From Gemmatimonadales bacterium (lineage in GTDB: Bacteria > Gemmatimonadota > Gemmatimonadetes > Gemmatimonadales > GWC2-71-9): 58,331 nt of DNA. The stretch spans positions 1 to 58,331 of the forward strand of contig DASUJH010000014.1 in the NCBI GenBank assembly GCA_036279355.1, in the 5' to 3' direction. This document shows, in pieces, positions 680-31,500 of the stretch. The translations under genes and the position numbers were made by a program. Within the stretch, counting starts at the first letter, position 1. Every line of letters begins with the position of its first letter. The notes beneath the pieces were generated by a model that saw only the letters and a program-made list of their open reading frames with translations, made no database searches and had not been told where the DNA came from.

Positions 680-1513
680 TCACCGTCTTTCATTGAAAAG
701 AGTCGCCACGACCGATTCCACCAGCTCCACCGCCGCATCGAGCGCCGCCCGCACCGGCGCGCTTAGCTCGGCCACGATCTCGCTCGGATCGAGATCGGCC
801 GGCAGCGGCTCGGGCTCACACCCCACCACGAGCGTCCGCGGTGGCTCGCCGCCCAGCGCACGGGCCAGGTGCAACACCTTGACCGGATCCATCCCGTGCG
901 CGTCGACCGCCACCTCGGCCGCCAAGTCGAGCGCGGGCTCGATCACATAGAGCGTGCCCGGCGCGCCGCCGCGCGGCACCGCGTCCACCAGCACCGCGGC
1001 GGCGTAGCCCCGCTGCAGCTCGTACGCGAGGTCGAGCCCGCGGATGCCGAACTCGCGCACCTCGACTCCGACGGGCCACGGGCGCGACGCGAGCCGCTCC
1101 GCCATCGCCACGCCGAAGCCGTCGTCGCCCAGGAAGATGTTGCCGATGCCGGCGACGAGGATGCGCGTCGCCATGGCACCCGCTACCGTCTCCGCTGTTC
1201 CGGGCGGGCCGTCCGGCTCGAGCGGCTCGACTTCATCGGATGCGAAGAAGAAGCGATGGCCGGGAAAGCGGCCGGCGCCGAGATCGCGCCCCGGATCGTC
1301 GTCGAGCGTCACCGCGAGATGTATGGCACCGCTCACGTCATGCTCCACGCTCTCCACCCGCGCCGCGCGTCCGGCGAGTATGGCATCGAACGCATCGCGC
1401 CCCGGCTTGGGCCGGAGCCGCACGCGGCTCCCCGCCCGCAGCTCGACGCCGTCCACCTCGACCGAATCGGCGCCCGGCCGCGCCAGCTCCTGCCAGAAGT
1501 CCATCGGACTCAC
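680..1513 (-). CDS. [NiFe] hydrogenase maturation endopeptidase with an extra N-terminal domain
   Basis: Residues 114-277 are a HybD/HycI-type protease, which removes the C-terminal tail of the large subunit once the Ni-Fe site is assembled. The motif GIGNIFLGDDGFG (residues 122-134), D177 in LVDAVPRGG and H206 in DAHGMDP match the three nickel-sensing ligand positions of the family. Residues 1-113 are not part of the usual 150-170 residue protease. They contain VRLRPKPGRDAFDAILAGR and PGHRFFFASDEVEPL and look like a separate small beta-rich domain. An ATG at codon 114 (base 1174) would give a protease of normal size, but the frame is open throughout, so a fusion is preferred. The GTG start at 1513 overlaps the upstream stop; an ATG at 1504 is an alternative. 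The likely substrate is the large subunit encoded in the same operon. Confidence 0.87.
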   Translation of the reverse strand: MSPMDFWQELARPGADSVEVDGVELRAGSRVRLRPKPGRDAFDAILAGRAARVESVEHDVSGAIHLAVTLDDDPGRDLGAGRFPGHRFFFASDEVEPLEPDGPPGTAETVAGAMATRILVAGIGNIFLGDDGFGVAMAERLASRPWPVGVEVREFGIRGLDLAYELQRGYAAAVLVDAVPRGGAPGTLYVIEPALDLAAEVAVDAHGMDPVKVLHLARALGGEPPRTLVVGCEPEPLPADLDPSEIVAELSAPVRAALDAAVELVESVVATLFNERR

Positions 1514-2529
1514 TCCGCGCCGAGCACGCGAAACTCGCGCACCGCGCCGTGGAGCCGCCGCATCTCGTCGGGCGCCAAGGCGGCGCAGCGCTCCAGGATC
1601 TCGCGGGCGCGCGGGTCGGAGTCGGCCATCTCGCGCCGCTCGTCGTCGGTGAGCGCCAGGACGTTGAGGATCAGCAACTGGTCGATCTCGCCGCCGTCGA
1701 AGAGGTCGCCCGGACTCTCCGGCGCGATGCGGGGATAATCGCCCAGGATGATCGGCGCGGCGAGCAGCGTGTGACGCTCGCCCGGCTCGCCCACGAGCGC
1801 GGGCCAGCTACCGATGCTCCGGCACGCCGCTGAGGCCGCGCGCAATTCGGGGGGCGGATCGATGGGAGACACGAATGCGCCGCCCTCGATGCGCAGCACC
1901 GCGTGGGTCGAGACGAGCGCGTGTCGGAGCGCCAGCTCGCGCGGGCCGCCGGTCCAGGGCGTGGTGTTGACGACCTCGACGTGGACGCGCCACACGCCCG
2001 GCTCCGCCTCGTCGGCGCGCACGGTGAGGGTGCCGAGGATTCGGCGCCACGAGCGGACGAGCGCAGCCACGCGCGCGCCCGCCTCCTCGATCGGTTCCTC
2101 CAGCTCGCCGGCCGCGATCTCGATCGGCACCGAATGCCCGGCACCGAGCGCGGCGAGCTCAAGCCCCGTCGCCACGATCTCGCGCTCCGTCGCCTCCTCC
2201 CAGGTGAGATGGCGCCGTCCCGACACGGCAAGCTGATCCACCGCCACGCGCTCGCCGCCGCGCTCGTCCATCACCTGTCGATCCACCACGTGCAGAAACC
2301 GCACGCGCACGTCGAGTCGCGCGCGTTCATCGGCTTCGACCAGGCACTCGACCGTCATCCGCCACGGATCGTCCTCGCCCCGCGCACGGCTGTACGTCTC
2401 GGGAAAGACCCCGCCGAACGTCCAGCGCTGCCGGTTCTTGAGGGCCGAACGCCGGTAGGGCCAGAGCAGGTACCCCTCGTACAGCACCGCCTGCGCGATG
2501 CGCGCGACCGGGTCCGCCGCGGTGATCAC
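1510..2529 (-). CDS. Hydrogenase-operon conserved protein of unknown function (339 aa)
   Basis: The GTG start at 2529 overlaps the stop of the preceding small gene (GTGA). The protein opens VITAADPVARIAQAVLYEGY and continues with LLWPYRRSALKNRQRW. I know this opening from uncharacterised proteins beside actinobacterial-type hydrogenase genes, but no function is established. There is no signal peptide, membrane helix or cysteine cluster. The middle (about residues 80-250) is rich in alternating hydrophobic and charged segments, including VHVEVVNTTPWTGGPR, which suggests a beta-sandwich core. The C-terminal 70 residues are acidic and helical. Because it is translationally coupled to both neighbours, it is probably made in step with them. 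An assembly or maturation role is inferred from context only. Confidence 0.8.
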   Translation of the reverse strand: MITAADPVARIAQAVLYEGYLLWPYRRSALKNRQRWTFGGVFPETYSRARGEDDPWRMTVECLVEADERARLDVRVRFLHVVDRQVMDERGGERVAVDQLAVSGRRHLTWEEATEREIVATGLELAALGAGHSVPIEIAAGELEEPIEEAGARVAALVRSWRRILGTLTVRADEAEPGVWRVHVEVVNTTPWTGGPRELALRHALVSTHAVLRIEGGAFVSPIDPPPELRAASAACRSIGSWPALVGEPGERHTLLAAPIILGDYPRIAPESPGDLFDGGEIDQLLILNVLALTDDERREMADSDPRAREILERCAALAPDEMRRLHGAVREFRVLGAE

Positions 2530-2747
2530 GCCGGCGACAGGTTCGGCGCCCGCGGATCGATCGGGTTCCGCGCCCCCGCATTGATGCCGGTCGAGCGCTC
2601 GGCCGTCGAGTTGCCGTTGGGCAGGTGACCGCCCTGCCGCGCGTAGTTGCCCGGCGCGTTGCCTTCCTTTATACCCGACACATGCGCCGGCTTGGTCGGC
2701 GTGGTCTGCGGCCGGCCGACCCGCAGGTTGACGTGCTTTGCGGTCAT
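2526..2747 (-). CDS. 73-residue hydrogenase-operon small protein, function unknown
   Basis: The ATG at 2747 overlaps the stop of the DUF5947-like gene (ATGA), and its own stop overlaps the next GTG. The peptide begins MTAKHVNLRVGRPQTTPTKP and ends NPIDPRAPNLSPA. It has no hydrophobic segment and no cysteine, and is rich in Gly, Asn, Pro and Thr, so it is probably extended or disordered until bound to a partner. Small proteins with the same opening and the same NLSP ending occur in actinobacterial hydrogenase clusters as far as I recall; that is family memory, not a search. The tight coupling on both sides supports it as a real gene. It could be a chaperone-like or structural peptide for the enzyme, but nothing in the sequence shows which. 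Confidence 0.8.
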   Translation of the reverse strand: MTAKHVNLRVGRPQTTPTKPAHVSGIKEGNAPGNYARQGGHLPNGNSTAERSTGINAGARNPIDPRAPNLSPA

Positions 2748-3403
2748 CGTGTTGCCTCCGATCTGATGAGCTCGCCGAAGAAGCGATCGATTTCCGTCCA
2801 GACTTCATCGCCGCCCGTGAGCCCGGTCCATTGCGTGCGCACCAGCGCCACCAGCCGGTAGCAGAGGTCGATCGGCGCGATCCAGCACTCGCGATCGCCG
2901 CGCATCCGATTCACCAGCAGCGCCTCGACCTCGGGCTCGAGCGCGCGCACCGCCGGCTCCGCGGCTTCGAGTGCCGCCCACGCCTCCGGTGCCACCGGCG
3001 CGTCGGTGGGGCCCAGCGCGCCCGGAAAAATCGCCGTCACGGCGTCGCCGCGCCGCACGAGAAACGCGAGCGACACCGGAAGCCCCAGGTCGCGCCAACG
3101 CGCGTCGTCGCGCGCGAGGTCGGGCAGCTCCACTCGACGCTCCGGCACGAGACGATACCTGCCGCCGCCCGCCGCCGGCTGGCCCAGGACGAGCGCGCAC
3201 GCCCGGCAGGCGCAGCGGAGCCCGCCCGTCGTGGTGTCGAGGAGGTGCGGGTGCTCGGCGCCGATCGGTACGGCGCAAAGCTCGCAGCGCTGGTTGGGCG
3301 CCTCCCCGACTTGCGTACCGCCGGCCGGCGCGGCCGGCGCGGCCGGCGCGGGCGGCGCAACGGCGCGCCGGCGCCGCGCCAGCTGCTCGAGCCGCCCGGT
3401 CAC
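2744..3403 (-). CDS. DUF5947-like cysteine-rich hydrogenase accessory protein
   Basis: The protein has 219 residues from a GTG start that overlaps the stop of the NifU-like gene. An N-terminal Ala/Pro linker comes from a 9-base GC repeat near 3325-3352. Then follow CELC (C40, C43), the segment HLLDTTTGGLRCACRACA (C64, C66, C69), and GGGRYRLVPERRVELPD. The C-terminus contains EALLVNRMRG, CWIAPIDLCYRLVALVR and EVWTEIDRFFGEL. This arrangement matches, from memory, the DUF5947 proteins found in actinobacterial-type hydrogenase operons. The five clustered cysteines could bind zinc or an Fe-S cluster. The function is unknown. Placement straight after the NifU-like gene suggests a role in loading or holding the metal clusters of the hydrogenase, or in electron transfer from it. 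Confidence 0.82.
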   Translation of the reverse strand: MTGRLEQLARRRRAVAPPAPAAPAAPAGGTQVGEAPNQRCELCAVPIGAEHPHLLDTTTGGLRCACRACALVLGQPAAGGGRYRLVPERRVELPDLARDDARWRDLGLPVSLAFLVRRGDAVTAIFPGALGPTDAPVAPEAWAALEAAEPAVRALEPEVEALLVNRMRGDRECWIAPIDLCYRLVALVRTQWTGLTGGDEVWTEIDRFFGELIRSEATR

Positions 3404-3972
3404 GCGCCGTTCCGCGCCGCTCCGGCGAGCTGCACCAGTGCGGCGGGTTCCGGCGCGGTTCGCGCGGGCGGCGCGGTGCCCTCGGCGACGATCCCGTCCA
3501 GCTCGGGCGCCGCCTTCCGCACCGCCTCTTCGATGGCGTGCCGCAGCGTGGCGGTGGACGACGGACAGCCGTGACAGCTCCCCTCGAGCTTCACCCGCGC
3601 CATGCCGTCGGCCACGCCGAGCAGCTCGACGCCTCCGCCGTGCGAGCGAAGGTAGGGGCGCACCTCGTCGAGCCCGCGCAGTACCCGCGCCTCGACGCTG
3701 TCCGGGTGCAGGTCGTGCACCAGCAGCAGGTGGCCGATCAGCTCGTCGTCGGCGAGGCGACGCACGGCCGCCGCGCCGCACGACTCCGACACGCCGCCCA
3801 GCACGCGGGCGAGCGCCTCGCCATACAGCTCGACCACCGCCTGCACCGCATCGAGCGCGGTGGTGCGCGCGCGATCGTCCGGCAATGCGTCGAGTGCCGA
3901 GAGCAGCGCCTCGACCTCCTCCACCCGCGCGCGCACCTCGCGATCGTCCAACGCGCCTCTCGAGGGCGTCAT
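3400..3972 (-). CDS. NifU-like Fe-S scaffold protein of the hydrogenase operon
   Basis: The C-terminal part (about residues 92-160) is a NifU C-terminal domain: VLRGLDEVRPYLRSHGGGVE followed by KLEGSCHGCPSSTATLRHAI, with the cluster-binding pair C133 and C136. Such domains assemble and pass on [4Fe-4S] clusters. The first 85 residues form a charged helical region with a lone Cys (C65) and do not match the NifU N-terminal scaffold. The C-terminal tail after residue 165 is low-complexity Ala/Pro. The ATG lies 7 bases after the large-subunit stop. A NifU protein inside a hydrogenase operon suggests dedicated cluster delivery to the small subunit, which carries three clusters in this enzyme class. 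In some relatives a Rieske domain is attached; none is seen here. Confidence 0.88.
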   Translation of the reverse strand: MTPSRGALDDREVRARVEEVEALLSALDALPDDRARTTALDAVQAVVELYGEALARVLGGVSESCGAAAVRRLADDELIGHLLLVHDLHPDSVEARVLRGLDEVRPYLRSHGGGVELLGVADGMARVKLEGSCHGCPSSTATLRHAIEEAVRKAAPELDGIVAEGTAPPARTAPEPAALVQLAGAARNGA

Positions 3973-3979
3973 CCGCCGC

Positions 3980-5782
3980 TCACCCGTGCTGCCCGAACAT
4001 CGGCGCGTGCACCTGCTTCACCACCCGGCCGCCGCCCAGGTACATGTGCACGCCGCAGGGCAGACAGGGATCGAAGCTGCGTACCGCGCGCATGATGTCG
4101 ACGCCCTTGAAGTTGTCGGGCCCGTTCTCCTCGAAGATCGGCGTGCCCTGCACGGCATCTTCGTAGGGGCCGGGGGTTCCGTAGGAGTCGCGCGGGCTCG
4201 CGTTCCACGGCGTGGGCGGATACGGGTGGTAGTTGGCGATCTTCTTGTCCCGGATCACGAGATGGTGCGAGAGCACGCCGCGCACCGCCTCGTGGAAGCC
4301 GCAGCCGATGGCCTCGTCGGGCACCGAGAAATCGGTGAACACCTTGGTGCGGCCGGCGTGCACCTCGTCCATCGCCTTCTCCAGGAAGAAGAACGCGAGC
4401 GCGGCCGAATAGGCCACGAAGTACATCCGGGCCCGGTCGCGCTCGATGGCGTTGGAGTGCTGCGGCACCTTCCACTCGAGCTGCATTTCGGGATGCTTGG
4501 CGCTCTTCGGCAGGTTGATCTGGACGCTGTGCCCCGTCGCCTTGACGTAGCCGGTGTCGACCAGGCCCGCGAGCGCCGTGACCCAGAGCCGCGCGATGGC
4601 GCCGCCGCCGGTGTCGAGCGCGAGGTGATCCTTGCTCTTGGGATCGTACCACCGCGGGCTCATGACCCAACTGTAGTTGCCGCCGTCGAGGTCGCGCTTC
4701 TGCGGCTTGGGGAGCGTCGTCTGATTCCACGGATGGCGCCGATCGACCGGATTGCCCAGCGGGTCGCGGGTCACGAACATCGGCTCCTGCTCCCAGTCGT
4801 CGTAATACGAGCTGCCGAGCAGGATCCGCATGCCGAGGTTGATGTCGACCAGGTTGGTGGTGATGAGCTTGCCGTCGATGAGGATGCCGGGGGTGACGTA
4901 CATCGCGCGGCCCCAGTCGTTCATCGTCTCGTACTTGTAGTCGCACACCTTCGGGTTCTGGAACGAACCCCAGCAGCCGATCAGGATGCGGCGCTCGCCG
5001 ACTCTCTCGTAGCCGGGCAGCGCGTCGAGGAAGAAGTCGAAGATGTCGTCGTTCATCGGCACGGCCTTCTTCACGAAGTCGAGCACCCGGATGAGGCGGC
5101 TCGCGTAGTCGGTGAAGACCTGCGGCGTCGCCACGGTGCCCACGCCCCCCGGGTACATCGTGGACGGGTGGACGTGACGCCCTTCCATGAGGCAGAACAT
5201 CTCGCGGGTCACCCGGCTCATCACCAGCGCTTCCTGGTAGATCGAGCCGACGAACGGGTTGCACGCCCGCATGATGTCGCCGATCGTGCGGAAGCCGTGG
5301 ATGGCGGCATGCGGCGCGTCGGTGCGGTTGGCGCGGTCGAGCAGGCCGGGGTTGGTCTGCTTTACCATCTCCTCGCACCAGTCCACGAACACCAGGTTGT
5401 CCTGGAAGATCGTGTGGTCGAACATGTACTCCGCCGCCTCGCCCAGGTTGATGATCCACTCGGCCAGGTCGGGCGGGCGGATGCCGTACGCCATCTGCTG
5501 CGCGTAGTGGGAGCAGGTGGTGTGATTGTCGCCGCAGATGCCGCAGATGCGGCTCGTGATGAAGCCGGCGTCGCGCGGGTCCTTGCCCTTCATGAACACG
5601 CTGTACCCGCGGAAGATCGACGAGGTGCTGTGGCACTCGGCGACTTCCCGGTTGTCGAAGTCGATCTTGGTGTAGATGCCGAGATTGCCGACGATACGGG
5701 TGATCGGGTCCCAGTTCATCTCGACCAGCCGGCCGCGCTCTTCCCGGGTGCCCGGGCCCGCCGGCATCGTGCTTGTGGCCAT
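3980..5782 (-). CDS. hhyL: [NiFe] hydrogenase large subunit, group 1h-like (actinobacterial type)
   Basis: The 600-residue catalytic subunit oxidises H2 at the Ni-Fe centre. The N-terminal ligand motif is RICGICGDNHTTCS (C80, C83). The C-terminal one is DPCLPCGVHM (C573, C576, H579), followed by a 21-residue tail that the operon's protease would cut off. The RICGICGDNH form of the first motif is characteristic of the oxygen-tolerant, high-affinity group 1h enzymes that consume atmospheric H2; the related group 1l cannot be excluded by eye. ATG at 5782 is preceded by AAGGAG eight bases upstream. The small-subunit gene ends 38 bases before it. No cytochrome b partner or quinone-binding subunit lies in the operon, so the electron route to the quinone pool is not visible. 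The symbol follows the actinobacterial literature (hhyL/hucL). Confidence 0.96.
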   Translation of the reverse strand: MATSTMPAGPGTREERGRLVEMNWDPITRIVGNLGIYTKIDFDNREVAECHSTSSIFRGYSVFMKGKDPRDAGFITSRICGICGDNHTTCSHYAQQMAYGIRPPDLAEWIINLGEAAEYMFDHTIFQDNLVFVDWCEEMVKQTNPGLLDRANRTDAPHAAIHGFRTIGDIMRACNPFVGSIYQEALVMSRVTREMFCLMEGRHVHPSTMYPGGVGTVATPQVFTDYASRLIRVLDFVKKAVPMNDDIFDFFLDALPGYERVGERRILIGCWGSFQNPKVCDYKYETMNDWGRAMYVTPGILIDGKLITTNLVDINLGMRILLGSSYYDDWEQEPMFVTRDPLGNPVDRRHPWNQTTLPKPQKRDLDGGNYSWVMSPRWYDPKSKDHLALDTGGGAIARLWVTALAGLVDTGYVKATGHSVQINLPKSAKHPEMQLEWKVPQHSNAIERDRARMYFVAYSAALAFFFLEKAMDEVHAGRTKVFTDFSVPDEAIGCGFHEAVRGVLSHHLVIRDKKIANYHPYPPTPWNASPRDSYGTPGPYEDAVQGTPIFEENGPDNFKGVDIMRAVRSFDPCLPCGVHMYLGGGRVVKQVHAPMFGQHG

Positions 5783-5820: not shown

Positions 5821-6942
5821 TCAGCCGCGCCGGCTCACCGCGCCGTTGGAGGCGTAGCGCTCGCCGCCGTTGCCGCCGGTGGGCGACGCCGGACCATGCC
5901 GCGGATAGCGCGGCGCGTAGCCGGTGGTGAGCGCGGGCCCGTTGTGCCGCCAGCGGGGCTCCTTGTTCACCGTATGATTGGTGATGCCGCGGAGGCGCCG
6001 GATGAGCGCGCCATAGCTTCCGATGAGAGTGGCGGACACCGTGCCGCCGGGCGGCTGGTCCATGAAGGGCATGAACTTGTCGGGGAAGCCCGGCATGGTG
6101 CAGCCGATGCAGATGCCGCCCACGTTGGGGCAGCCGCCGATGCCGTTCATCCAGCCGCGCTTGGGGACGTTGCAGTTCACCACCGGCCCCCAGCAGCCGA
6201 TCTTGACCTGGCACTTGGGCGAGTTGTAGTCCCCCGCGAAGTCACCCTGCTCGTAGTAGCCCGCGCGGTCGCAGCCCTCGTGCACCGTCTTGCCGAAAAG
6301 CCATTGGGGCCGGAGCTGATCGTCCAGCGGAATCATGGGCGCCTTGCCCGCCGCCTGCTTGAGCAGCCAGACCAGCGTCTCCATGAAGTTGTCGGGTTGG
6401 ATGGGACAGCCGGGGACGTTGACGATGGGGAGGCCGCCGGCCGAGCGGAAGTTCCAGCCGAGGTAGTCGGCGAGCCCCATACACCCGGTGGGGTTGCCCG
6501 CCATGGCGTGGATGCCGCCGTAGGTGGCGCAGGTGCCGGCCGCGACCACGGCCCAGGCGCCCGGGGCGAGCCGATCGATCCAGGTGTTGAGTGTGATCGG
6601 CTGACCGGTCTCGGGGTCGTTGCCCATCGAGGTCCAGTAGCCGTCTCCATCGATGTGCTCGTTCGGAATCGAGCCCTCGACCACGAAGACGTAGGGGCCG
6701 AGCTCGCCGCGCGCCGCCTGGCGGAACGGCTTGAGGAACTCCTCGCCGCCCTGCGTGGGCGAGAGCAGCTTGCTATGGAGGTGGACCTTGGGCAATCCGG
6801 GCACGAGGCCCAGGATCACGTCCTCGATGCTGGGCTGCATGGCGGCGGTGAGCGACACCGAATCGCCGTCACAGCTCATGCCCTCGGAGGTCCAGAGGAT
6901 ATGGACTTCGTCTACCCCGTGCCGCTCCCTGGTTTCGGCCAT
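5821..6942 (-). CDS. hhyS: [NiFe] hydrogenase small subunit, group 1h-like, with Asp in the proximal cluster motif
   Basis: The 373-residue Fe-S subunit carries electrons away from the Ni-Fe site. The first cluster motif reads SEGMSCDGDSVSL (C24, D27), whereas most hydrogenases have CxxC. An Asp in place of a Cys at the proximal cluster is known from the actinobacterial-type enzyme of Cupriavidus necator and fits group 1h. Further ligands are visible in AGTCATYGG, NVPGCPIQPDNF, HEGCDRAGY, KIGCWGPVVNC and GGCPNVGGICIGC. There is no twin-arginine signal peptide, so a cytoplasmic-side enzyme is likely. The C-terminal 60 residues are Gly/Pro/Arg-rich and poorly conserved. ATG at 6942 has GGGAGG about eight bases upstream. 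It is the first gene of the operon and reads away from hypA. Confidence 0.96.
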   Translation of the reverse strand: MAETRERHGVDEVHILWTSEGMSCDGDSVSLTAAMQPSIEDVILGLVPGLPKVHLHSKLLSPTQGGEEFLKPFRQAARGELGPYVFVVEGSIPNEHIDGDGYWTSMGNDPETGQPITLNTWIDRLAPGAWAVVAAGTCATYGGIHAMAGNPTGCMGLADYLGWNFRSAGGLPIVNVPGCPIQPDNFMETLVWLLKQAAGKAPMIPLDDQLRPQWLFGKTVHEGCDRAGYYEQGDFAGDYNSPKCQVKIGCWGPVVNCNVPKRGWMNGIGGCPNVGGICIGCTMPGFPDKFMPFMDQPPGGTVSATLIGSYGALIRRLRGITNHTVNKEPRWRHNGPALTTGYAPRYPRHGPASPTGGNGGERYASNGAVSRRG

Positions 6943-7169: not shown

Positions 7170-7565
7170 ATGCACGAACTCTCGATCGCCATGAGCCTGG
7201 TGGACGCCGCGTGCGAAGAGCGGCGGCGCCTGGGCGCGGTGCGGGTCCAGGCGCTCCGCGTACGGCTGGGCGCGCTCTCGGGCGTGGTGCCGGACGCGCT
7301 GCTCTTTGCCTTCGACCTCGCGGTGTCCGACAGCGAGATCGCGGGTGCCAGGCTCGAGATCGAAGAGGTGCCGGTCGTGATCCATTGCGGCACCTGCGGC
7401 GAGGAGCGGCCGCTCGCCGGCATCCAGCACTTCCGCTGCCCCGTGTGCAACACGCCCGCCGTCGAGGTCCGGAGCGGCCGCGAGCTGCAGCTGGTAGCGC
7501 TGGAGGTGTTCGACATGAATCCCGGAGAGGTGGAGGCGCACCACGATGCACCCGCGAATCGTTGA
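7170..7565 (+). CDS. hypA: Hydrogenase nickel metallochaperone HypA
   Basis: The protein is 131 residues and starts MHELSIAMSLVDAACEE; the N-terminal amine and His2 bind nickel in this family. The structural zinc site is visible as CGTCGEERPL and FRCPVCN (two CxxC pairs). HypA hands nickel, with HypB, to the large-subunit precursor. It is transcribed divergently from the hydrogenase operon, with a 227-base gap between the two start codons, and its last 20 bases overlap hypB. The C-terminus beyond the second CxxC (VEVRSGRELQLVALEVFDMN and a short tail) is normal for the family apart from about 10 extra residues. The ribosome site GGCAGGGCA is weak. Confidence 0.96.
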   Translation: MHELSIAMSLVDAACEERRRLGAVRVQALRVRLGALSGVVPDALLFAFDLAVSDSEIAGARLEIEEVPVVIHCGTCGEERPLAGIQHFRCPVCNTPAVEVRSGRELQLVALEVFDMNPGEVEAHHDAPANR

Positions 7566-8244
7566 GGTCCGGCGCGACCTGCTCAAGAAGAACGACGTCC
7601 TGGCCCGCGCGCTGCGAGAGCGATTCAGCCTGGCCGGCGTGCGCGTCGTGAACGCCGTCTCGGGGCCGGGCGCCGGGAAGACCACGCTGCTCGAGGCGAC
7701 GCTTTCCGCGCTGGCTCCGCGCCGCCGGGTCGCCGCGCTCGTGGGCGACCTCGCCACCGATAACGACGCGCGCCGGCTCGGCCGGAGCGGCGCGCCGGTC
7801 CGCCAGATCACCACCGGCACCGTCTGCCATCTCGATGCCGAAATGGTGGAGCGGGCGCTCGAGGGCTGGGACCTCTCGGCGCTCGACCTCCTCTTCATCG
7901 AGAACGTGGGCAATCTCGTCTGCCCGGCGAGCTTCGACCTGGGCGAGCAGCTCCGGGTGGTGCTCTTCTCGGTGACGGAGGGCGAGGATAAGCCGCTCAA
8001 GTATCCCACCATCTTCAACAGCGCCGACATGGCCATCGTGACCAAGATCGACCTGGCGGACGCGGTGGGGTTCGACCGCGCGGCCGCGCACCGGAACGTC
8101 CGCGAGGTGCGCCCCGACATCGAGATTCTCGAAGTGTCGGCGCGCACGGGCGCCGGAATGGGCGCGTGGCTCGCGCGCCTCGAGTCGGCCGAGGCTGTGG
8201 CACCGGCGGCTGTTCCCGTGACCCCAATCACTGTCCGCACCTGA
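7546..8244 (+). CDS. hypB: Hydrogenase nickel-incorporation GTPase HypB
   Basis: The protein is 232 residues. The Walker A motif is SGPGAGKTTLLEATL (about residues 44-58), followed by GDLATDNDARRL (switch I region), TTGTVCHLDAEMV (metal-binding Cys-His of the GTPase domain), ENVGNLVCPASFDLGE and TKIDLAD (the NKxD-like base-recognition motif). HypB powers nickel delivery with HypA. There is no histidine-rich N-terminal nickel-storage stretch, so this is the minimal form. The gene overlaps hypA by 20 bases. hypC, hypD, hypE and hypF, all needed for the Fe(CN)2CO part of the site, are not in the window and must lie elsewhere if the enzyme is made. Confidence 0.96.
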   Translation: MHPRIVEVRRDLLKKNDVLARALRERFSLAGVRVVNAVSGPGAGKTTLLEATLSALAPRRRVAALVGDLATDNDARRLGRSGAPVRQITTGTVCHLDAEMVERALEGWDLSALDLLFIENVGNLVCPASFDLGEQLRVVLFSVTEGEDKPLKYPTIFNSADMAIVTKIDLADAVGFDRAAAHRNVREVRPDIEILEVSARTGAGMGAWLARLESAEAVAPAAVPVTPITVRT

Positions 8245-8345: not shown

Positions 8346-10649
8346 ATGGTGAACCAGCAGGCGACCGACCAGGCGACCGGCGACAAGGCGGCGAAGCCGA
8401 AGGCGGCTGATCACGAGGCAGCCGACCGGAAGGCAGCCGACCAGAGCTCACGCAAGTGGCAGGTCCTCACCCGCGGTCCCGAATCCGTCGCCCGCACCAT
8501 CGCCGATGCCGTCGTCATCAAGTCCGGGGACATCTTCCTCCTCACCGATCCCGACGGGCGCGTGCCTCGAGGCCAGGAACACGGCCTCGGCCTCTATTAT
8601 CACGACTGCCGCTTTCTCCGTTCCTACGACTTGAGGCTCGCCGGCACCGCGCCCGTGGGGCTCGGCAGCACCGCGGTCGCGGGCAACAAGGCCGTTTTCC
8701 AGCTTACCAATCCCGACCTCCGGCTCGCCGGCGGCTACGCGCTTCGCCGCGACGTCATCGGCATCAAGTGGGTCCGCGAGCTGTCCGACCAGACCCTGGT
8801 GCTGGCCGAGCACCTCACCTTCCAGAACTGGAGCGAGGACGCGGTGAGCGTTCCGGTCGAGTTCCGCTTCGATGCCGAATTTCAAGACGTGTTCGAGGTG
8901 CGCGGGCTCATCGACCAGCATCCCGGCACGCTCCACCCCCCCGAGTGGCATGGCGAGACGCTCCAGTTCGCCTACGACGGCCGGGACGGGATCCGGCGCA
9001 CGCTTTCGGTGAGCGTGCCGGGCGAGCTTGCGGCCACCGGCGATCACAGCTGTGCCGGCACCATCCGCCTCGACCCGCGCGGGCACCGGACGCTCGCGCT
9101 CCGATTCGAGGTGAAGGAGTCGCCGGAGCACGGCGCGCCCGTCGATCCCGCCGCCGTCCAGGTCATGCCCACGCGCTCGGCGCCGAGCGCGCCGCCGGAA
9201 TCGCGCGCCACGGTGCACTCCGACAGCGTCCTGTTCAACGCATTGCTCGATCGCTCCTTCACCGATCTCGACCTGCTCCGCACCGAGGAGGACGGTTGCA
9301 CCTTCTTCGCCGCCGGGGTGCCCTGGTTCGCCGCCCTGTTCGGGCGCGACAGCCTCATCTCCGCGCTGCAAGTGCTGCCCTACCAGTCGCGCATCGCGGC
9401 GGAGACGCTCCGGCTCCTGGCCAGGCATCAGGGCACCAAGATCGACGACTACCGCGCCGAGCAGCCGGGCAAGATCCTCCACGAGCTGCGCGTGGGCGAG
9501 CTGGCGCGCACCGGCGATATCCCCCACAACCCGTACTACGGCTCGATCGACTCGACGCCGCTCTTTCTCATCGTCCTCGCGCGCTACGTCGCGTGGACCG
9601 GCGACCTCTCGCTCTTCTCCGATCTGCACGACAACGTCGAGCGCGCGCTCACCTGGATCGCCAAGTACGGCGACACCGACGGCGACGGCTTTGTCGATTA
9701 CCCGAGCACGGACAGGTCCGCCGAGTCGAAGGACGGCGGGATCATCAACCAGGGGTGGAAGGATTCGGGCAACGCCATCATCGACGAGCAGGGGCACATC
9801 GCGACGCCGCCGATCGCGCTGGTCGAGGTCCAGGGCTACGTGTACGCCGCCAAGCTCGGTATGGCGGATCTTTTCGAGCGCGCCGGCGACAAGACCGGCG
9901 CCAACACGCTCCGGAAGGAAGCATCCGAGCTGCGCACCCGATTCAACCGCGCTTTCTGGCTGCCCGACCTGGGTTTCTACGCGATGGCGCTCGAGGCGGG
10001 CGACAAGCCGCTCCGGGTGATTTCGTCCAACCCGGGCCACGCGCTCTGGACCGGCATCGCCGACGGCGACAAGGCCGAGTCCACCGCCAAGCATCTCATG
10101 GCCGACGACATGTTCAGCGGTTTCGGCATCCGGACCCTCTCGTGCGAGGCGGCCGGCTACACGCCGATCGGCTACCATCTCGGCACCGTCTGGCCGCACG
10201 ACACCGGCTTCTGCGCGGCGGGGCTGCATCGGTACGGCTTCGGCGACTTCGCCCGCAAGGTGCTCGAGGGCATCGTCGCCGCCGCGAGCGATTTCGAGCA
10301 CGAGCGGCTGCCCGAGCTGTTCACCGGATTTTCACGCAAGGAATACGGGACGCCGATCCGTTATCCCGTGGCCTGCCATCCGCAGGCATGGGCCGCGGGG
10401 TCCGTGCCGTTTCTGCTCTACCACCTGCTCGGCCTCGAGCCCGACGCCTTCAGCCGCCATCTCCGCGTCGTCCGGCCGCTGTTGCCGGAGTACGTCGACA
10501 CGATCGAGCTGCGCGGGCTCCGCGTCGGCAACTGCTCGGCCGATCTCCGATTCGAGCGCACCAAGGATCGCGACGTCGCGGTGCGCCCGCTCTCGGTGAA
10601 GGGCGGGCTGGAGGTGACGGTGGAGCTGGATCCGAAAGGGAAGGACTGA
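8346..10649 (+). CDS. Amylo-alpha-1,6-glucosidase / glycogen-debranching family glycoside hydrolase
   Basis: The protein is 767 residues. Residues 1-36 are a low-complexity Ala/Asp/Lys stretch. From about 37 to 250 lies the N-terminal glycogen-debranching-like domain (LTDPDGRVPRGQEHGLGLYY, YHDCRFLRSYDLRL). From about 300 onward is an (alpha/alpha)6 barrel with FAAGVPWFAALFGRDSLIS, NQGWKDSGNAI, GYHLGTVWPHDTG and FSRKEYGTPIRYPVACHPQA, all typical of this family. It probably trims alpha-1,6 branches or short oligosaccharides in the cytoplasm, as no signal peptide is seen. ATG at 8346 was chosen because sequence upstream in this frame overlaps hypB and loses similarity. The gap after hypB (8245-8345) holds only weak TATATG/CATACT promoter-like words. 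The SDR gene begins one base after the stop. Confidence 0.88.
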   Translation: MVNQQATDQATGDKAAKPKAADHEAADRKAADQSSRKWQVLTRGPESVARTIADAVVIKSGDIFLLTDPDGRVPRGQEHGLGLYYHDCRFLRSYDLRLAGTAPVGLGSTAVAGNKAVFQLTNPDLRLAGGYALRRDVIGIKWVRELSDQTLVLAEHLTFQNWSEDAVSVPVEFRFDAEFQDVFEVRGLIDQHPGTLHPPEWHGETLQFAYDGRDGIRRTLSVSVPGELAATGDHSCAGTIRLDPRGHRTLALRFEVKESPEHGAPVDPAAVQVMPTRSAPSAPPESRATVHSDSVLFNALLDRSFTDLDLLRTEEDGCTFFAAGVPWFAALFGRDSLISALQVLPYQSRIAAETLRLLARHQGTKIDDYRAEQPGKILHELRVGELARTGDIPHNPYYGSIDSTPLFLIVLARYVAWTGDLSLFSDLHDNVERALTWIAKYGDTDGDGFVDYPSTDRSAESKDGGIINQGWKDSGNAIIDEQGHIATPPIALVEVQGYVYAAKLGMADLFERAGDKTGANTLRKEASELRTRFNRAFWLPDLGFYAMALEAGDKPLRVISSNPGHALWTGIADGDKAESTAKHLMADDMFSGFGIRTLSCEAAGYTPIGYHLGTVWPHDTGFCAAGLHRYGFGDFARKVLEGIVAAASDFEHERLPELFTGFSRKEYGTPIRYPVACHPQAWAAGSVPFLLYHLLGLEPDAFSRHLRVVRPLLPEYVDTIELRGLRVGNCSADLRFERTKDRDVAVRPLSVKGGLEVTVELDPKGKD

Positions 10650-10650
10650 G

Positions 10651-11664
10651 ATGCCCCACCCGGATGCACGTCCAGATGTCGTCGTCGTCACCGGCGCAGG
10701 TGCCGGGGTGGGCCGCGCGGCGGTGCGCGCGTTCGCGAAGGAGCGGGCCCGCATCGGGCTCGTGTCGCGCAACGCGCACCGGCTGGAGCAGGCCCGACTC
10801 GAGGTCGAGGCGGCGGGCGGCGAGGCGCTGGTGCTGCCGACCGACGTGGCCGACGCCGACGCAGTCGAGGCGGCCGCCGCGGCGGTGGAGCAGCGCTGGG
10901 GGACGATCGACGTCTGGGTCAACGACGCGATGGTGTCGGTCTTCTCGCCGGTGAAGAAGATGCGCGCCGACGAGTATCGCCGGGTGACCGAGGTGACGTA
11001 CCTCGGCTACGTGTACGGCACGCTGGCGGCGCTCAAGCGGATGCTCCCGCGCGATCACGGCGTGATCGTGCAGGTGGGGTCGGCGCTCGCGTATCGCGCC
11101 ATCCCGCTGCAGTCGGCGTACTGCGCCGCCAAGCACGCGGTCCAGGGATTCACCGAGGCGCTCCGCTCCGAGCTGTATCATGACGGGAGCCGCGTGCGGG
11201 TCTGCATGCTGCAGATGCCGGCGCTCAACACCCCGCAGTTCCGCTGGAGCCGGAGCCGAATGCCGTTCAAGGCGCAGCCGGTCCCGCCCATCTTCCAGCC
11301 CGAAGTCGCGGCCGACGCGATCGTGTTCGCGGCGCACCACCATCGCGAGGAGATGTACGTCGGCTTTCCCTCGGCGAAGGCGATCGTGGGCAACCGGATC
11401 GCCCCGCGCCTCCTCGACCACTACCTCGCCCACACCGGCTACAAGTCGCAGCAGACCGACCAGCCCGAAGACCCGAACCGCCCCGACAACCTCTTCGAGA
11501 CCGTGAACGGCGATCAGGGCGCGCACGGCGTGTTCGACGCGCGGTCGCGCGACCGGAGCTGGCAGCTCTGGGCCACCGAGCATCGCGGCGCGCTCGCCCT
11601 CGGTGCCATCGGCGCTCTGGGCGGCGCGCTCGCGATCGGCGCCGCATTAAGGAGAACGACATGA
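10651..11664 (+). CDS. Short-chain dehydrogenase/reductase with a C-terminal membrane anchor
   Basis: The 337-residue protein has the nucleotide-binding loop TGAGAGVGRAAVRAF near the N-terminus, NDAM where classical SDRs have NNAG, the catalytic serine in VGSALAYRA and the Tyr-Lys pair in YCAAKHAVQG. After the SDR core (about 250 residues) there is a tail ending in a hydrophobic Gly/Ala helix (ALALGAIGALGGALAIGAAL) and RRTT. This suggests attachment to the cytoplasmic membrane. The family form matches the 'SDR oxidoreductases with membrane tail' common in soil bacteria; the substrate is unknown. The stop overlaps the start of the TPP-enzyme gene (ATGA), so the two are co-expressed. The departure from NNAG to NDAM is unusual but does not remove the catalytic triad. 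Confidence 0.85.
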   Translation: MPHPDARPDVVVVTGAGAGVGRAAVRAFAKERARIGLVSRNAHRLEQARLEVEAAGGEALVLPTDVADADAVEAAAAAVEQRWGTIDVWVNDAMVSVFSPVKKMRADEYRRVTEVTYLGYVYGTLAALKRMLPRDHGVIVQVGSALAYRAIPLQSAYCAAKHAVQGFTEALRSELYHDGSRVRVCMLQMPALNTPQFRWSRSRMPFKAQPVPPIFQPEVAADAIVFAAHHHREEMYVGFPSAKAIVGNRIAPRLLDHYLAHTGYKSQQTDQPEDPNRPDNLFETVNGDQGAHGVFDARSRDRSWQLWATEHRGALALGAIGALGGALAIGAALRRTT

Positions 11665-13463: not shown

Positions 13464-13488
13464 GCGGCACCGGCCGCGGGGCTCGCCC

Positions 13489-14790
13489 GTGAAGATCGAC
13501 TTCCCCTACCCGGGCTACGAGGACATCGCGCCGTGCGAGGTGCCCGACCCGAATCTCATGGGCGTCTTCGCGCCGCGCGCGCTCCCCGGGCTCGACGAGG
13601 CGAGCGTGCTGGCCGAGGGGTTCACCCATCCGGTCGGCGCGCCGCGGCTCCGCGAGGCGGCGGGCGCCGGCGACCGCGTTCTCATCCTGATCGACGACGC
13701 CACCCGGAGGACGCCCACCGCGCGCATCCTGCCGCACGTGCTGGACGAGCTGCATGCCGCCGGCGTGGCCGACGACCGGATCGAGCTCATGCAGGCCACC
13801 GGCACCCACCGGCCGATGACGGCCGAGGAGCGGCGCGAAAAGCTCGGACCTCTCGACGGCCGCTATCCGGTCCACGAGCACCACTACCTCGACCGCTCGT
13901 GTCTCCACGACTTCGGCCGGACGAGCGACGGCACGCCCATCACCGCGAGCCGCCGCATCACCGAAGCCGACTTCGTGCTCGGGGTGGGCTCCATCCTGCC
14001 GCACCGGGTCAAGGGAATGTCGGGCGGCGCCAAGATCATGTTTCCCGGTGTCTCCGGCCCCGAGATGATGGACCGGAACCAGTGGGAAGCGTCGATGCAG
14101 ATGTCGGTGACCGTGATGGGCGTGCCGGAGAACTCGATGCGGCTCCGCATGGAGGAGGCGGCGCGCATCGCGGGGCTGAGCTACATCGTGAACGTGGTGT
14201 ACGACATCCAGCAGCGCATCGTCGGCTGCTTCACCGGCGACATCGTGCGCGCACATCGCGAGGGTTGCGTGCGGGCGCGCGAGGTCTACGCCGTCCACGT
14301 CCCCACCCGCGCCGACATCGTGCTCATCGATTCGCACTCGGCCGACCGCGACTTCTGGCAGTCGGCCAAGGGGCCGTACGCGGGGACGATGGCGGTGAAG
14401 ACGGGCGGCTCGCTCATCCTGGTGTCGCCCAACCCCGAAGGCGTCGCGAGCAATCACAAGAACCTGCTCGAGATCGGCTACAAGCCGCACGCGGAGCTCG
14501 TGCGCATGGTGCAGCAGGGCGGGGTGAAGGACCTCGTCGGCGTCGCGATCCTGGCCGACGTGGCGCAGATCGTGGACCGCGCTGATTGCATCATGATGTC
14601 CCCCGGGGTGAAGCGGGAGGAGGCGGAGCGGATCGGCTTCCGCTACGCGGAGTCGGCCCAGCGCGCGCTCGAGATGGCGTTCGAGCGCCAGGGCGCAAAT
14701 GCCACCGTGGCCGTGCTCCGCTACGGCGGCCACATCCTGCCGGTCGTGGACGATCAAGAGGTCGACCGCGTGGCCGATCTCGTCGCATGA
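13489..14790 (+). CDS. LarA-family (lactate racemase-like, DUF2088) protein
   Basis: The protein has 433 residues from GTG at 13489, 26 bases after the TPP-enzyme stop. LarA enzymes racemise 2-hydroxyacids with a nickel-pincer nucleotide bound to a lysine. Visible features are ILIDDATRRTPTARILP, GTHRPMTAEERR (H107), LPHRVKGMSGGAKIMFPG (H172, and the cofactor-binding lysine K182). In Lactiplantibacillus LarA the nickel is also held by H200, sixteen residues after the lysine. Here that position falls in RNQWEAS and is Gln (Q198). The enzyme may therefore bind nickel differently, act on another substrate, or not be a racemase. The gene lies directly before a D-lactate dehydrogenase-like gene, which supports a hydroxyacid role. 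The cofactor genes larB, larC and larE are not in the window. Confidence 0.82.
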   Translation: MKIDFPYPGYEDIAPCEVPDPNLMGVFAPRALPGLDEASVLAEGFTHPVGAPRLREAAGAGDRVLILIDDATRRTPTARILPHVLDELHAAGVADDRIELMQATGTHRPMTAEERREKLGPLDGRYPVHEHHYLDRSCLHDFGRTSDGTPITASRRITEADFVLGVGSILPHRVKGMSGGAKIMFPGVSGPEMMDRNQWEASMQMSVTVMGVPENSMRLRMEEAARIAGLSYIVNVVYDIQQRIVGCFTGDIVRAHREGCVRAREVYAVHVPTRADIVLIDSHSADRDFWQSAKGPYAGTMAVKTGGSLILVSPNPEGVASNHKNLLEIGYKPHAELVRMVQQGGVKDLVGVAILADVAQIVDRADCIMMSPGVKREEAERIGFRYAESAQRALEMAFERQGANATVAVLRYGGHILPVVDDQEVDRVADLVA

Positions 14791-27838: not shown

Positions 27839-28288
27839 TCAGGCGTGGCGCAAGAGGTCGGAGAGCAGGGGCACTCCCGCCTCCTGATAGCGGCGGCGCT
27901 TGATGAAGCGATCGTACCGCGAGGTCGCCCGGCTCAGCACCTCGGCCACAAGGAGGAGCTCGCTGATGTCCGACCACTCCAGCTCGCGGACTCGAGCGCG
28001 GCCCTGGACCGGGGGCACGACGAACACATCGGGCTGCACCAGCACGTCGGGGCCCCAAGAGACGTCGGCGGGCGACGCGAAGACCCCACCCAAGCGGTGT
28101 GCGAGCACGTACTGCGTAAGCGCGAACACCAGCCGCCCGACGATTGCCTGATGCCAGCGCCGCGGCGCCGGCGTCACGAGCAGCTCGCCGTGGACGACCT
28201 CGTACCGATTCCCGTCGTCAGGCAACGCGCGAACCATGTCCGCGGTGTAATAAGGAAGGCGGAGACCCTCGCCGACGCGATCCACCAT
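27839..28288 (-). CDS. Uma2 family (DUF820) nuclease-fold protein, shortened at the C-terminus
   Basis: The protein has 149 residues from ATG at 28288. It contains the Uma2 core: RYEVVHGELLVTPAPRRWHQ, VLVQPDVFVVP (Asp of the PD-(D/E)xK fold), ELLLVAEVLSRATSRYDRF (Glu) and IKRRRYQEAGVP (Lys). Family members usually continue from the EAGVP segment with YWIVD and about 30 more residues. Here the reading changes to LLSDLLRHA and stops. The fold's last strand and helix are therefore missing, so the gene may be decayed or truncated at the repeat-rich junction. Uma2 proteins are scattered singletons of unknown biological role, often in expanded families. Confidence 0.78.
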   Translation of the reverse strand: MVDRVGEGLRLPYYTADMVRALPDDGNRYEVVHGELLVTPAPRRWHQAIVGRLVFALTQYVLAHRLGGVFASPADVSWGPDVLVQPDVFVVPPVQGRARVRELEWSDISELLLVAEVLSRATSRYDRFIKRRRYQEAGVPLLSDLLRHA

Positions 28289-28450
28289 CGTTGAATCTTG
28301 CGCTCCTCGGCGCCGAGACGACAAGGGGTAGGCACGCCGGAAGCTCGCGGCGGCGAGCGCGAGACACGCAACCCGATTCGCGCGGTCCGGCGCGCTTCGC
28401 AACATCCCGCGAGCGGACCGCCCCGGTGCCGTCCGGCATCGATTCCCGCT

Positions 28451-28456
28451 TATGTT
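28451..28456 (+). promoter_or_regulatory. -10-like box TATGTT upstream of the glucan synthase gene
   Basis: TATGTT followed by GC matches the motif seen just ahead of the aminotransferase gene (TATGTTTGCC at 38898). A nine-base gap separates it from a short ATG ORF at 28466. No good -35 hexamer was seen. The 233-base gap 28289-28521 between the divergent Uma2-like and glucan synthase genes holds nothing else recognisable. Confidence 0.35.
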
Positions 28457-28465
28457 GCACGCGAC

Positions 28466-28513
28466 GATGCCCATCCACACACCCGCACCGCCCGCCGCGC
28501 CCGCCGCCGGTTA
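28466..28513 (+). other. Short upstream ORF (15 residues) before the glucan synthase gene
   Basis: ATG at 28466 opens the reading MPIHTPAPPAAPAAG and meets TAG eight bases before the GTG start of the glucan synthase. It is in another frame from that gene. It could be a leader peptide coupled to the large gene, the original N-terminus split off by a frameshift, or chance. The Pro/Ala content is no more than base composition would give. Confidence 0.25.
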
Positions 28514-28521
28514 GGCTCCGC

Positions 28522-31500
28522 GTGCCCTTCAACTTTCCGACCGCGGCGCCGCTGCGCCACCTCGCGCGGCGCCTCTCGCGCCGCGCCGACCGCCGCGACG
28601 ATCTCGTCGCCGGCCCGCTCCGCGGCGAGCTGCTCGGCGCCGAGCACCTGGCAGAGCGCGGCCGCGCGGTGGCGCGCGCGCAGGCGGTGGTGCCGCGCGG
28701 ACGGCGGGCGCGCCGCGCGCTGCTGCTCGAGCGGCTTACCGGCACACGCCGCGTGCTCGACGATGCCTACGCCCGGCTCACCGCGGCCGCCGAGCACGAT
28801 GCGGACGTGGGTCCCGCCGGCGAATGGCTGCTCGATAACGCTTACGTGGTGCAGGAGCACATCCGCGAGGTGCACGAGAGCCTGCCGCGCGGCTATTACC
28901 GCGAGCTACCCGAGCTCGCGAGCGGGCCGCTCGCCGGCTATCCGCGGGTGTACGAGCTTGCCATCACACTGATCTCGCACACCGAAGGCCGCATCGACCT
29001 CGAAAACGTGAGCCGCATCGTGGCCGCGTTCCAGCAGGTGACACCGCTCTCGATCGGCGAGCTCTGGGCCATTCCCGCCATGCTCCGCGTGGGCCTGCTC
29101 GAGAGCGTGCGCCGCATGGCGCTCCGCACCCTGCACCGGCTCGACGATCTCGAGCGCGCCGACCGCTGGGCCGCGCGCTTCACGGCCGCCGCGGAAGAAG
29201 GCGCCGCGCCGGGCAACGCCCACGGCGCCGCCGCCCACGGCGCCACGCTCCATGAGTTCCTCGCCCACCCGCCGCCGCTCACCCCCACCTTCGTGGCCCG
29301 CTTCCTCCAGCAGCTCCGGCTCGCGCGCGGCGACCTTCCCTCGCTCGCCTGGCTCGAGCAGTGGATCGGCGAGGAGGGCCTGAGTGCCGAGGACGCGGCC
29401 GCGAGCGCGGGCCAGCGCACCGCGCTCACCCAGGTCATGGTGGCCAACAGCATCACCAGCCTGCGCGCCGTCGCCCGGATGGAATGGCAGACCTTCGTCG
29501 AGCGGCAGAGCGTGATGGAGGCGGCGCTGCGCGAGGATCCAGCCGGCGTGTACGGGCGAATGACCTTCGCCACCCGCGACCGCTACCGCCACGCGATCGA
29601 GCGGATCGCGAAGCGCACCGGCCGCAGCGAGGACGCGGTGGCGCGGAGCGCGGTCGACCTGGCGCGTGCCGCGCGCGACGACGCCGGCACGCACGACGCC
29701 GACCCGCGCCGCGCCCACGTCGGCTACTACATCGTGGGCGAGGGGCGCCCCGCGCTCGACCGCGCCACCCGCTATCGCCCGCCGGTGAAGGAGGCGGTGC
29801 ACCGCTGGGTCCTGCGCCACCCCAACGTGGTGTTCGTGGGTGGCATCGTCGTGAGCACCATCGTGGCGCTCGCCATCGTGCTCTGGCCAGCCTGGTCCGC
29901 GGCGCGGGCCGGCTGGTGGGCGGTGCTGCTCTTCGCCTTCATCCCGGCCACCGAGATCGCCGTGAGCGTGGTGAACCAGCTCATCACCGCGTTCCTTCCG
30001 CCGAGCGAGCTCCCCAAGCTGGACCTGAGCGAACCCGGCGGCTTGCCGCCCGAGTACCGCACCGCGGTGGTGATCCCGACGCTCTTCGGCAGCGTCGAAT
30101 CGGTCCATGAGGCGCTGGGCGATCTCGAGGCGCAGTTCCTCGCCAACCGGGAGCGGCACCTGCACTTCGCGCTCCTGAGCGACTTCACCGATGCGCCGTC
30201 CGAAGCGGTCGGGGGCGACGCGGCGATCGTCGACGCCGCGGTGGCCGGCGTGCGCGCCCTCAACGCGCGGTATGCCGGAGGCGCCGCCGGCACACCCGCG
30301 GACGCCGAGGACGCCTTCTATCTCTTTCATCGGCCCCGCCGCTGGAACCCGCGGCAGGGCGTCTGGATGGGTTGGGAGCGGAAGCGCGGCAAGCTGGCCG
30401 AGTTCAACCGGTTTCTCCGCGGCGGCGCCGACGGCGCGTTTTCCGCCGTGGTCGGCGACGCGGCGCGCATCCGGCAGGTGCGCTACGTCATCACGCTCGA
30501 CGCCGACACCGTCCTGCCACCCGACACGGCGCCGCTCCTGATCGGCGCGCTGGCCCACCCGCTCAACCGCGCCGTCTACGACCCCAAGCGCGGCCGGGTC
30601 GTGCGCGGCTACGGCATCCTGCAGCCGCGGGTCGGCGTGACACTGCCGAGCGCGCACCGTTCGTACTTTGCCGCGATCCACTCCGGGCATCCGGGCGTGG
30701 ACCCCTACACCACCGCCGTGTCCAACGTGTACCAGGACCTCTACGGCGAAGGCAGCTTCACCGGCAAGGGCATTTACGACGTCGACGCCTTCGAGCAGGC
30801 CACCCATGGCCGCTTTCCCGAGAATACCCTCCTCTCGCACGACCTCATCGAGGGAAGCTACGCCCGCGCGGGCCTCGCCACCGACATCACGGTGTACGAC
30901 GACTACCCGGCCCGCTATCTCACGTACGCCCGCCGCAAGCATCGCTGGATCCGAGGAGACTGGCAGTTGCTGCCGTGGCTCACGCCATGGGTGCCGGGGC
31001 CCACCGGCCGCGAGCGCAACCGGCTCTCGCTGCTCTCGCGCTGGAAGATTCTCGATAACCTGCGACGCAGCACCGTCGAGATCGCGCAGCTCGCCTTCCT
31101 GGTGGCCGGCTGGACCATTCTGCCCGGCTCACCGCTTCACTGGACGGTGCTCGGGCTCGCGGCCATCGCGGCGCCGTGGATCGTGGCGCTGCTGCTCGCC
31201 GGACTCCGGCCGCCGTTCGACAAGTCATGGCGCGCCTACTACGCGGCGGTCGATCGCGACGTGGTGACGAGCGCCGAGCAGGTAGGGCTCGCCATCGCGT
31301 TCCTGCCGCACCAGGCGTGGAACTCTGCCGACGCGATCCTGCGCACGCTGTGGCGGCTGCTGGTCTCGCGCCGCCGGCTGCTCGAGTGGCAGGCCGCATC
31401 GCAGGTGGAGCGCACCGCGTCGACGTCGGCGCGCGGCGCATGGTACGCGATGGCGCCGGCGGTGGCGCTCGCCGCCGGCATCCTGGCCGGAGTAGCGTGG

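Follow-up and report, generated by a model that had tools for sequence, protein, structure and literature searches.

A gene cassette dedicated to group 1h [NiFe] hydrogenases in a Gemmatimonadales bacterium and its possible role in enzyme assembly

The stretch of DNA analysed here (the window) is an entire contig of 58,331 nucleotides from a Gemmatimonadales bacterium, whose minus strand carries the structural genes of a [NiFe] hydrogenase followed by a cassette of smaller genes. The small subunit, HhyS (373 aa; 5821..6942), contains an SCDGD motif near its N-terminus, and no Tat-like leader was seen on inspection. The large subunit, HhyL (3980..5782), which is the predicted protease substrate, ends in a 21-aa tail located after the motif DPCLPCGVH. 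Downstream lie the genes coding for an HhyE-like (NifU-like) protein (3400..3972), composed of an N-terminal domain and an NFU domain with CxxC; a DUF5947 protein of 219 aa (2744..3403) with the motif C40-x2-C43, H51xH53, C64xC66-x2-C69; a conserved 73-aa peptide (2526..2747) whose C-terminal end is ...PIDPRAPNLSPA; a 339-aa protein, called p339 (1510..2529), with a central beta domain; and X-HupD (277 aa; 680..1513), in which domain X, approximately the first 100 residues, precedes a HupD/HyaD-type maturation endopeptidase. The genes hypA (7170..7565) and hypB (7546..8244), which overlap each other, are on the plus strand, divergent from the cassette.

The DUF5947 protein was recognised by Pfam only (PF19372, E 1.4e-62, 210.9 bits, above the cut-off of 25), and the NFU domain and the protease by Pfam and NCBIfam. 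The matches of X-HupD to HycI (PF01750) and to TIGR00072, the hydrogenase maturation protease superfamily (115.3 bits, cut-off 47.45), are above cut-off and cover about residues 117-268, and that to the hupD subfamily model TIGR00140 is under cut-off. Neither p339 nor the 73-aa peptide had any Pfam or NCBIfam match, and domain X alone had none in Pfam. The initial annotation considered three of the four products from DUF5947 to the protease as lacking a known function, which is supported. The identification of p339 as DUF6084 was discarded, since p339 has no Pfam match and DUF6084 proper is encoded by a gene of its own, absent here.

No hypC, hypD, hypE or hypF gene was found in the window. 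In another member of the family (locus L008) these four genes are situated directly after the protease gene and, since the window is the entire contig, the missing ones may be located past its end. At this edge of the contig, about 350 bp past the protease gene, there is a CRISPR-like array (5-330) formed by four near-identical repeats (ATTTCCGCGGGCGATCGTCCGCGGCTCCATTGAAGC) and a degenerate fifth one, with a spacing of 71-72. Elsewhere in the window, some 5 kb from hypAB, an ORF at 13485-14790 may code for a LarA-type (nickel) lactate racemase, and a 3082-aa open frame on the plus strand (28144-37392) is overlapped by long antisense frames in high-GC sequence.

The consecutive products had been described as joined by GTGA/ATGA overlaps, and every junction was found on the minus strand: GTGA at 3400-3403 (NifU-like/DUF5947), ATGA at 2744-2747 (DUF5947/peptide), GTGA at 2526-2529 (peptide/p339) and GTGA at 1510-1513 (p339/protease). 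These four 4-nt overlaps chain the genes from the NifU-like one (3972-3400) through the protease, so that the chain starts one gene earlier than initially annotated. Such overlaps suggest tight co-expression, and translational coupling would be expected from them. A scan of GTDB genomes for p339 yielded 80 further loci from Gemmatimonadota, Actinomycetota, Chloroflexota and Pseudomonadota (the pairs L006/L046, L009/L011 and L082/L083 each come from one genome). Where the contig is long enough, these loci present, with few exceptions, the order S-L-NifU-DUF5947-peptide-DUF6084-p339-X-HupD; therefore, the gene chain exceeds chance. Of 84 loci, the window included, 66 have HhyS next to the cassette, and 4-nt overlaps are found in 62/83 loci at the p339/protease junction, in 43/76 at NifU/DUF5947 and in 38/79 at DUF5947/peptide. 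Some lineages dispense with DUF6084 and the peptide, and the most constant part consists of p339, X and the protease. In two Streptomyces-like genomes (G475 and G432), p339-X is found upstream of hhyS. The hhyL gene of an uncultured Dechloromonas MAG (L081, 2308-3967) is split by an insertion whose longest frame is transposase-like, and this locus also lacks DUF5947 and the peptide. With synonymous differences close to saturation, the pN/pS ratios gave no information. HhyL distances correlate with those of the cassette proteins at 0.39-0.54, no better than with those of HypB (0.56), and therefore do not single out the cassette.

Group 1h hydrogenases are oxygen-tolerant enzymes that take up atmospheric H2 in soil, their H2 oxidation being characteristically of high affinity and insensitive to oxygen. 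The closest solved relative of the window HhyL is chain C of 5AA5 (HofG of C. necator), with 1066 bits against 157 bits for the next best, which identifies the enzyme, by sequence, as an actinobacterial-type group 1h hydrogenase. Both proteins align as far as the histidine of the motif, and the 21-aa tail of the window protein lies past that point. All 72 scored loci have a HhyL tail of 20-28 aa after the motif (DxCxxCxxH), which is predicted to be removed on maturation.

The association of the cassette with this hydrogenase class was examined in 515 genomes, 298 of Gemmatimonadota and 217 of Actinomycetota. DUF5947 was found in 28 of them; 27 also contain a group-1h large subunit and in the 28th the contig is cut. 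Within the Gemmatimonadota, 82 of the 298 genomes show large-subunit matches, only 5 of them group-1h-like (at least 77% identity), and the 4 genomes with DUF5947 all belong to these 5; in the fifth, the contig stops just past hhyL and hhyE. Within the Actinomycetota, DUF5947 is present in 24/217 genomes, 23 of which also encode a large subunit of group-1h type at 64-79% identity (present just as pieces split between contigs in two or three of them), and in the 24th (G493) the contig stops inside DUF5947, next to DUF6084, p339-X and HupD. The p339 protein is found in all 24 DUF5947-bearing Actinomycetota (G407 has just a fragment of it at a contig end), as well as in G520, together with the cassette; G459 gave a single weak, chance-like match. 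Dozens of genomes whose NiFe hydrogenases are of other types lack DUF5947, and a second clade of large subunits (about 43% identity; L092 and L093) is accompanied by NifU-like and protease genes, with no DUF5947, DUF6084 or p339. At least one group-1h MAG (G346, locus L102) lacks DUF5947. In that locus (9132-10824), the NifU-like protein and DUF6084 are in one open frame through Arg/Asp-rich repeats, with no DUF5947 between them, which may be a fusion or merely an open frame. The conservation beside this hydrogenase class that was initially claimed thus extends to four phyla, and homologues common in genomes devoid of hydrogenase, which would have spoken against it, did not appear among the 515 genomes, since DUF5947 and p339 track the group-1h large subunit. 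These genes are a cassette dedicated to group 1h hydrogenases.

The C-x2-C, HxH, CxC-x2-C motif of DUF5947 is complete in 77 of 79 proteins, the remaining two being truncated at contig ends, and is also kept in C. necator and Mycobacterium. Regarding HhyE, 45 of 77 loci have no CxxC, 22 have at least three and 10, the window among them, have one or two; the C. necator protein has none. Since HhyE lacks CxxC in these 45 loci and in C. necator, a universal electron path through its cysteines is unlikely, and on sequence grounds it is DUF5947, rather than HhyE, that holds an invariant motif of metal type. The window HhyE has CxxC in its NFU domain, with neither a C-terminal CxxC pair nor a rubredoxin-like C-terminal tail. 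In a Gemmatimonadaceae MAG (L006, 7168-7555), HhyE keeps the N-terminal domain and has no NFU domain, and a similar case is on record for a methanotroph (PMC12319191). The predicted model of DUF5947 is confident (pLDDT 89.7) and gave no fold match in the PDB at E<=0.001; a sliding-clamp fold was discarded, its matches being of low probability. DUF6084 (PF19562) had no match in the whole genomes of the window and of family member G090, the same search giving matches in all 7 other genomes, and it is also absent from G475 and G432. Our literature search retrieved no paper naming DUF5947, and the sole one naming DUF6084 concerns aurodox biosynthesis. DUF5947 may act in metal-cluster assembly, which is the reading we prefer, or as an electron exit.

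Domain X, which occupies the N-terminal ~90 to ~100 aa of the window protease, is nearly universal but its partner is variable. Over the loci, X is fused to HupD in 72 cases and to the C-terminus of p339 in 10, C. necator and Mycobacterium among them, and stands alone in 8. Gene fusions with alternating partners indicate that p339, X and HupD work together. The movement of X between two neighbours suggests that both have a common target, most simply the large subunit, and the p339-X-HupD set most likely performs or checks the final step of large-subunit maturation. The tie between p339 and the protease provided by X is a new clue of this analysis.

Sequence searches of the PDB with p339 gave no credible match. 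Its AlphaFold2 model has a confident central beta domain, and among the 350,542 chains compared by Foldseek the top hit was DrmA of the DISARM system (7S9V; E 1.5e-4, prob 0.99), the resemblance lying in the N-terminal region of that protein. The PADLOC model of DrmA, PDLC02573, matches p339 in 30 of 58 cases, the best at 4.4e-8, with collinear alignments that cover roughly positions 84-328 of the 1018 in the profile; control sequences, one reversed and two shuffled, had no match. Profile-profile comparison of p339 with DrmA-type proteins, limited to their N-terminal regions, gave a score of 34.3, whereas none of 60 column shuffles exceeded 20.4. These three results stand against convergence of beta-sandwich folds, a somewhat doubtful explanation that nevertheless draws on a whole-model TM-score of just 0.30, on an hhalign probability of only 18%, on the failure of the window's own p339 to match in PADLOC, and on canonical DrmA proteins (taken from plasmids), none of which, taken singly, gave a significant hit with the p339 profile in HMMER. 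Common descent of p339 and the DrmA N-terminal region is more probable than not, without being proven. p339 itself does not belong to DISARM: with 339 aa it lacks the RecA/helicase domains of DrmA, as well as a DrmB partner and a defence context. In 217 Actinomycetota and 299 Pseudomonadota genomes, PDLC02573 found generic helicases only, or nothing. The DrmA N-terminal region has been described as a "structural chassis" (PMC9142583), and we tentatively raise the possibility that p339 is such a chassis domain, recruited from a DISARM-type helicase to work on its own as a scaffold, which by means of the mobile domain X would deliver the large subunit of group 1h enzymes to the protease that processes it. 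If true, a single protein module would be common to phage defence and metalloenzyme assembly.

The initial annotation proposed a dedicated assembly or electron-transfer module. The dedication to group 1h was borne out; the choice between both roles is not decided by the sequence, and the evidence leans to assembly. That the cassette serves group 1h [NiFe] hydrogenases as a dedicated module for assembly (maturation) has, in our opinion, about an even chance of being right; in its favour are the strict association with group 1h, the X fusions, the large-subunit tail present in all scored loci and the invariant DUF5947 motif. HypA, HypB and other Hyp proteins would put the NiFe centre into HhyL; p339 would be the scaffold and, once the large subunit has folded, would offer it through domain X to the HupD-type protease for removal of the tail of approximately 21 residues after DPCxxCGVH. 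The module's metal site, for zinc or Fe-S, would lie in DUF5947, which together with HhyE would probably serve assembly of the small subunit or of clusters in air. Gene overlaps would keep the levels of the products in step. The protein contacts, the order of the steps and the identity of the metal are here what we infer.

Several points go against assembly. The invariant cysteines of DUF5947 fit a redox protein equally well, DUF5947 is missing in L102, p339-X lies upstream of hhyS in the two Streptomyces-like genomes and, protease aside, no cassette protein is like HoxL/O/Q/R/T/V. Moreover, HhyE and PHG067, the C. necator DUF5947 protein, have been proposed for electron transfer: HhyE is needed for H2 uptake and oxidation in M. 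smegmatis, as a knockout demonstrated, and co-migrates with HhyLS on native gels, assembly being allowed for as well (PMC6883350), and a passage of the same paper, citing Schafer 2013, gives PHG067 as a proposed electron acceptor. A rather unlikely alternative is accordingly that DUF5947, with or without HhyE, connects the small subunit to the respiratory chain, the protease gene merely ending the operon; the loci of C. necator and M. intracellulare, which have no annotated cytochrome b gene beside the structural genes, and the Cys/His motif of DUF5947 would fit it. However, the 45 loci and C. necator with a CxxC-less HhyE argue against this protein as a universal Fe-S relay, the group-1h locus L102 dispenses with DUF5947, and domain X is tied to the protease. 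It is also conceivable, and clearly less probable, that the assembly machinery is limited to p339-X-HupD, and that DUF5947, HhyE, the peptide and DUF6084 are subunits or tethers of the mature enzyme, in line with the loss of DUF6084 and the peptide from some lineages and the greater constancy of p339, X and the protease. Against it, 5AA5, the sole solved relative of the enzyme found, gave no sign of such subunits in the comparison with HhyL, which covered chain C.

Several ORFs beside group 1h hydrogenases have had no function assigned since they were first noticed. With assembly as the preferred reading, the class-specific cassette, the X link between p339 and the protease and the DUF5947 motif can guide deletions separating assembly from electron transfer, as well as the choice of genes for expressing group 1h enzymes in other hosts.

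The module had been presented as not yet described, which does not hold. In C. necator, PHG066-069, next to hofKG, have been listed as four ORFs without a known function, PHG070 being a putative protease (PMC4377017); a role for PHG067 has been proposed and HhyE has been knocked out, as mentioned above, and four CDS of unknown function are reported beside hhyL (PMC12319191). The cassette genes were thus noticed before but unexplained; the X swap, the apparent distant p339-DrmA kinship, the invariant DUF5947 motif as opposed to the variable HhyE CxxC, and a genome without the usual DUF6084 are new here. The HoxL/O/Q/R/T/V (HupF/G/H/I/J/K) set of membrane-bound group 1 hydrogenases offers a functional analogy, that of added assembly factors for hydrogenases made in air. 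The cassette as a divergent form of these factors was rejected, as DUF5947, DUF6084, p339 and X showed no profile homology to them; for instance, DUF5947 and DUF6084 gave no significant hhalign match to HoxR/HoxT (rubredoxin/HybE), and HoxM, the positive control, matched the cassette protease. The mycobacterial Hhy operon is like the window in having the NifU-like HhyE right after the large subunit, and the M. intracellulare plasmid locus continues after HhyE with DUF5947, DUF6084, p339-X and the protease; mycobacterial HhyE has a C-terminal CxxC pair, a tail that the window protein lacks. The closest counterpart by gene set is the AH (group 5/1h) locus of C. necator H16, PHG064-PHG070, coding for HofK, HofG, a NifU-like protein, DUF5947, DUF6084, p339-X and HupD, in which PHG067 and PHG069 correspond, by gene order, to DUF5947 and p339-X, and the pHG1 cassette is placed between hofG and hypFCDE. 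While C. necator carries X on p339, has DUF6084 and an HhyE without CxxC, and no peptide was detected in it, the window has X on the protease and the peptide, and no DUF6084.
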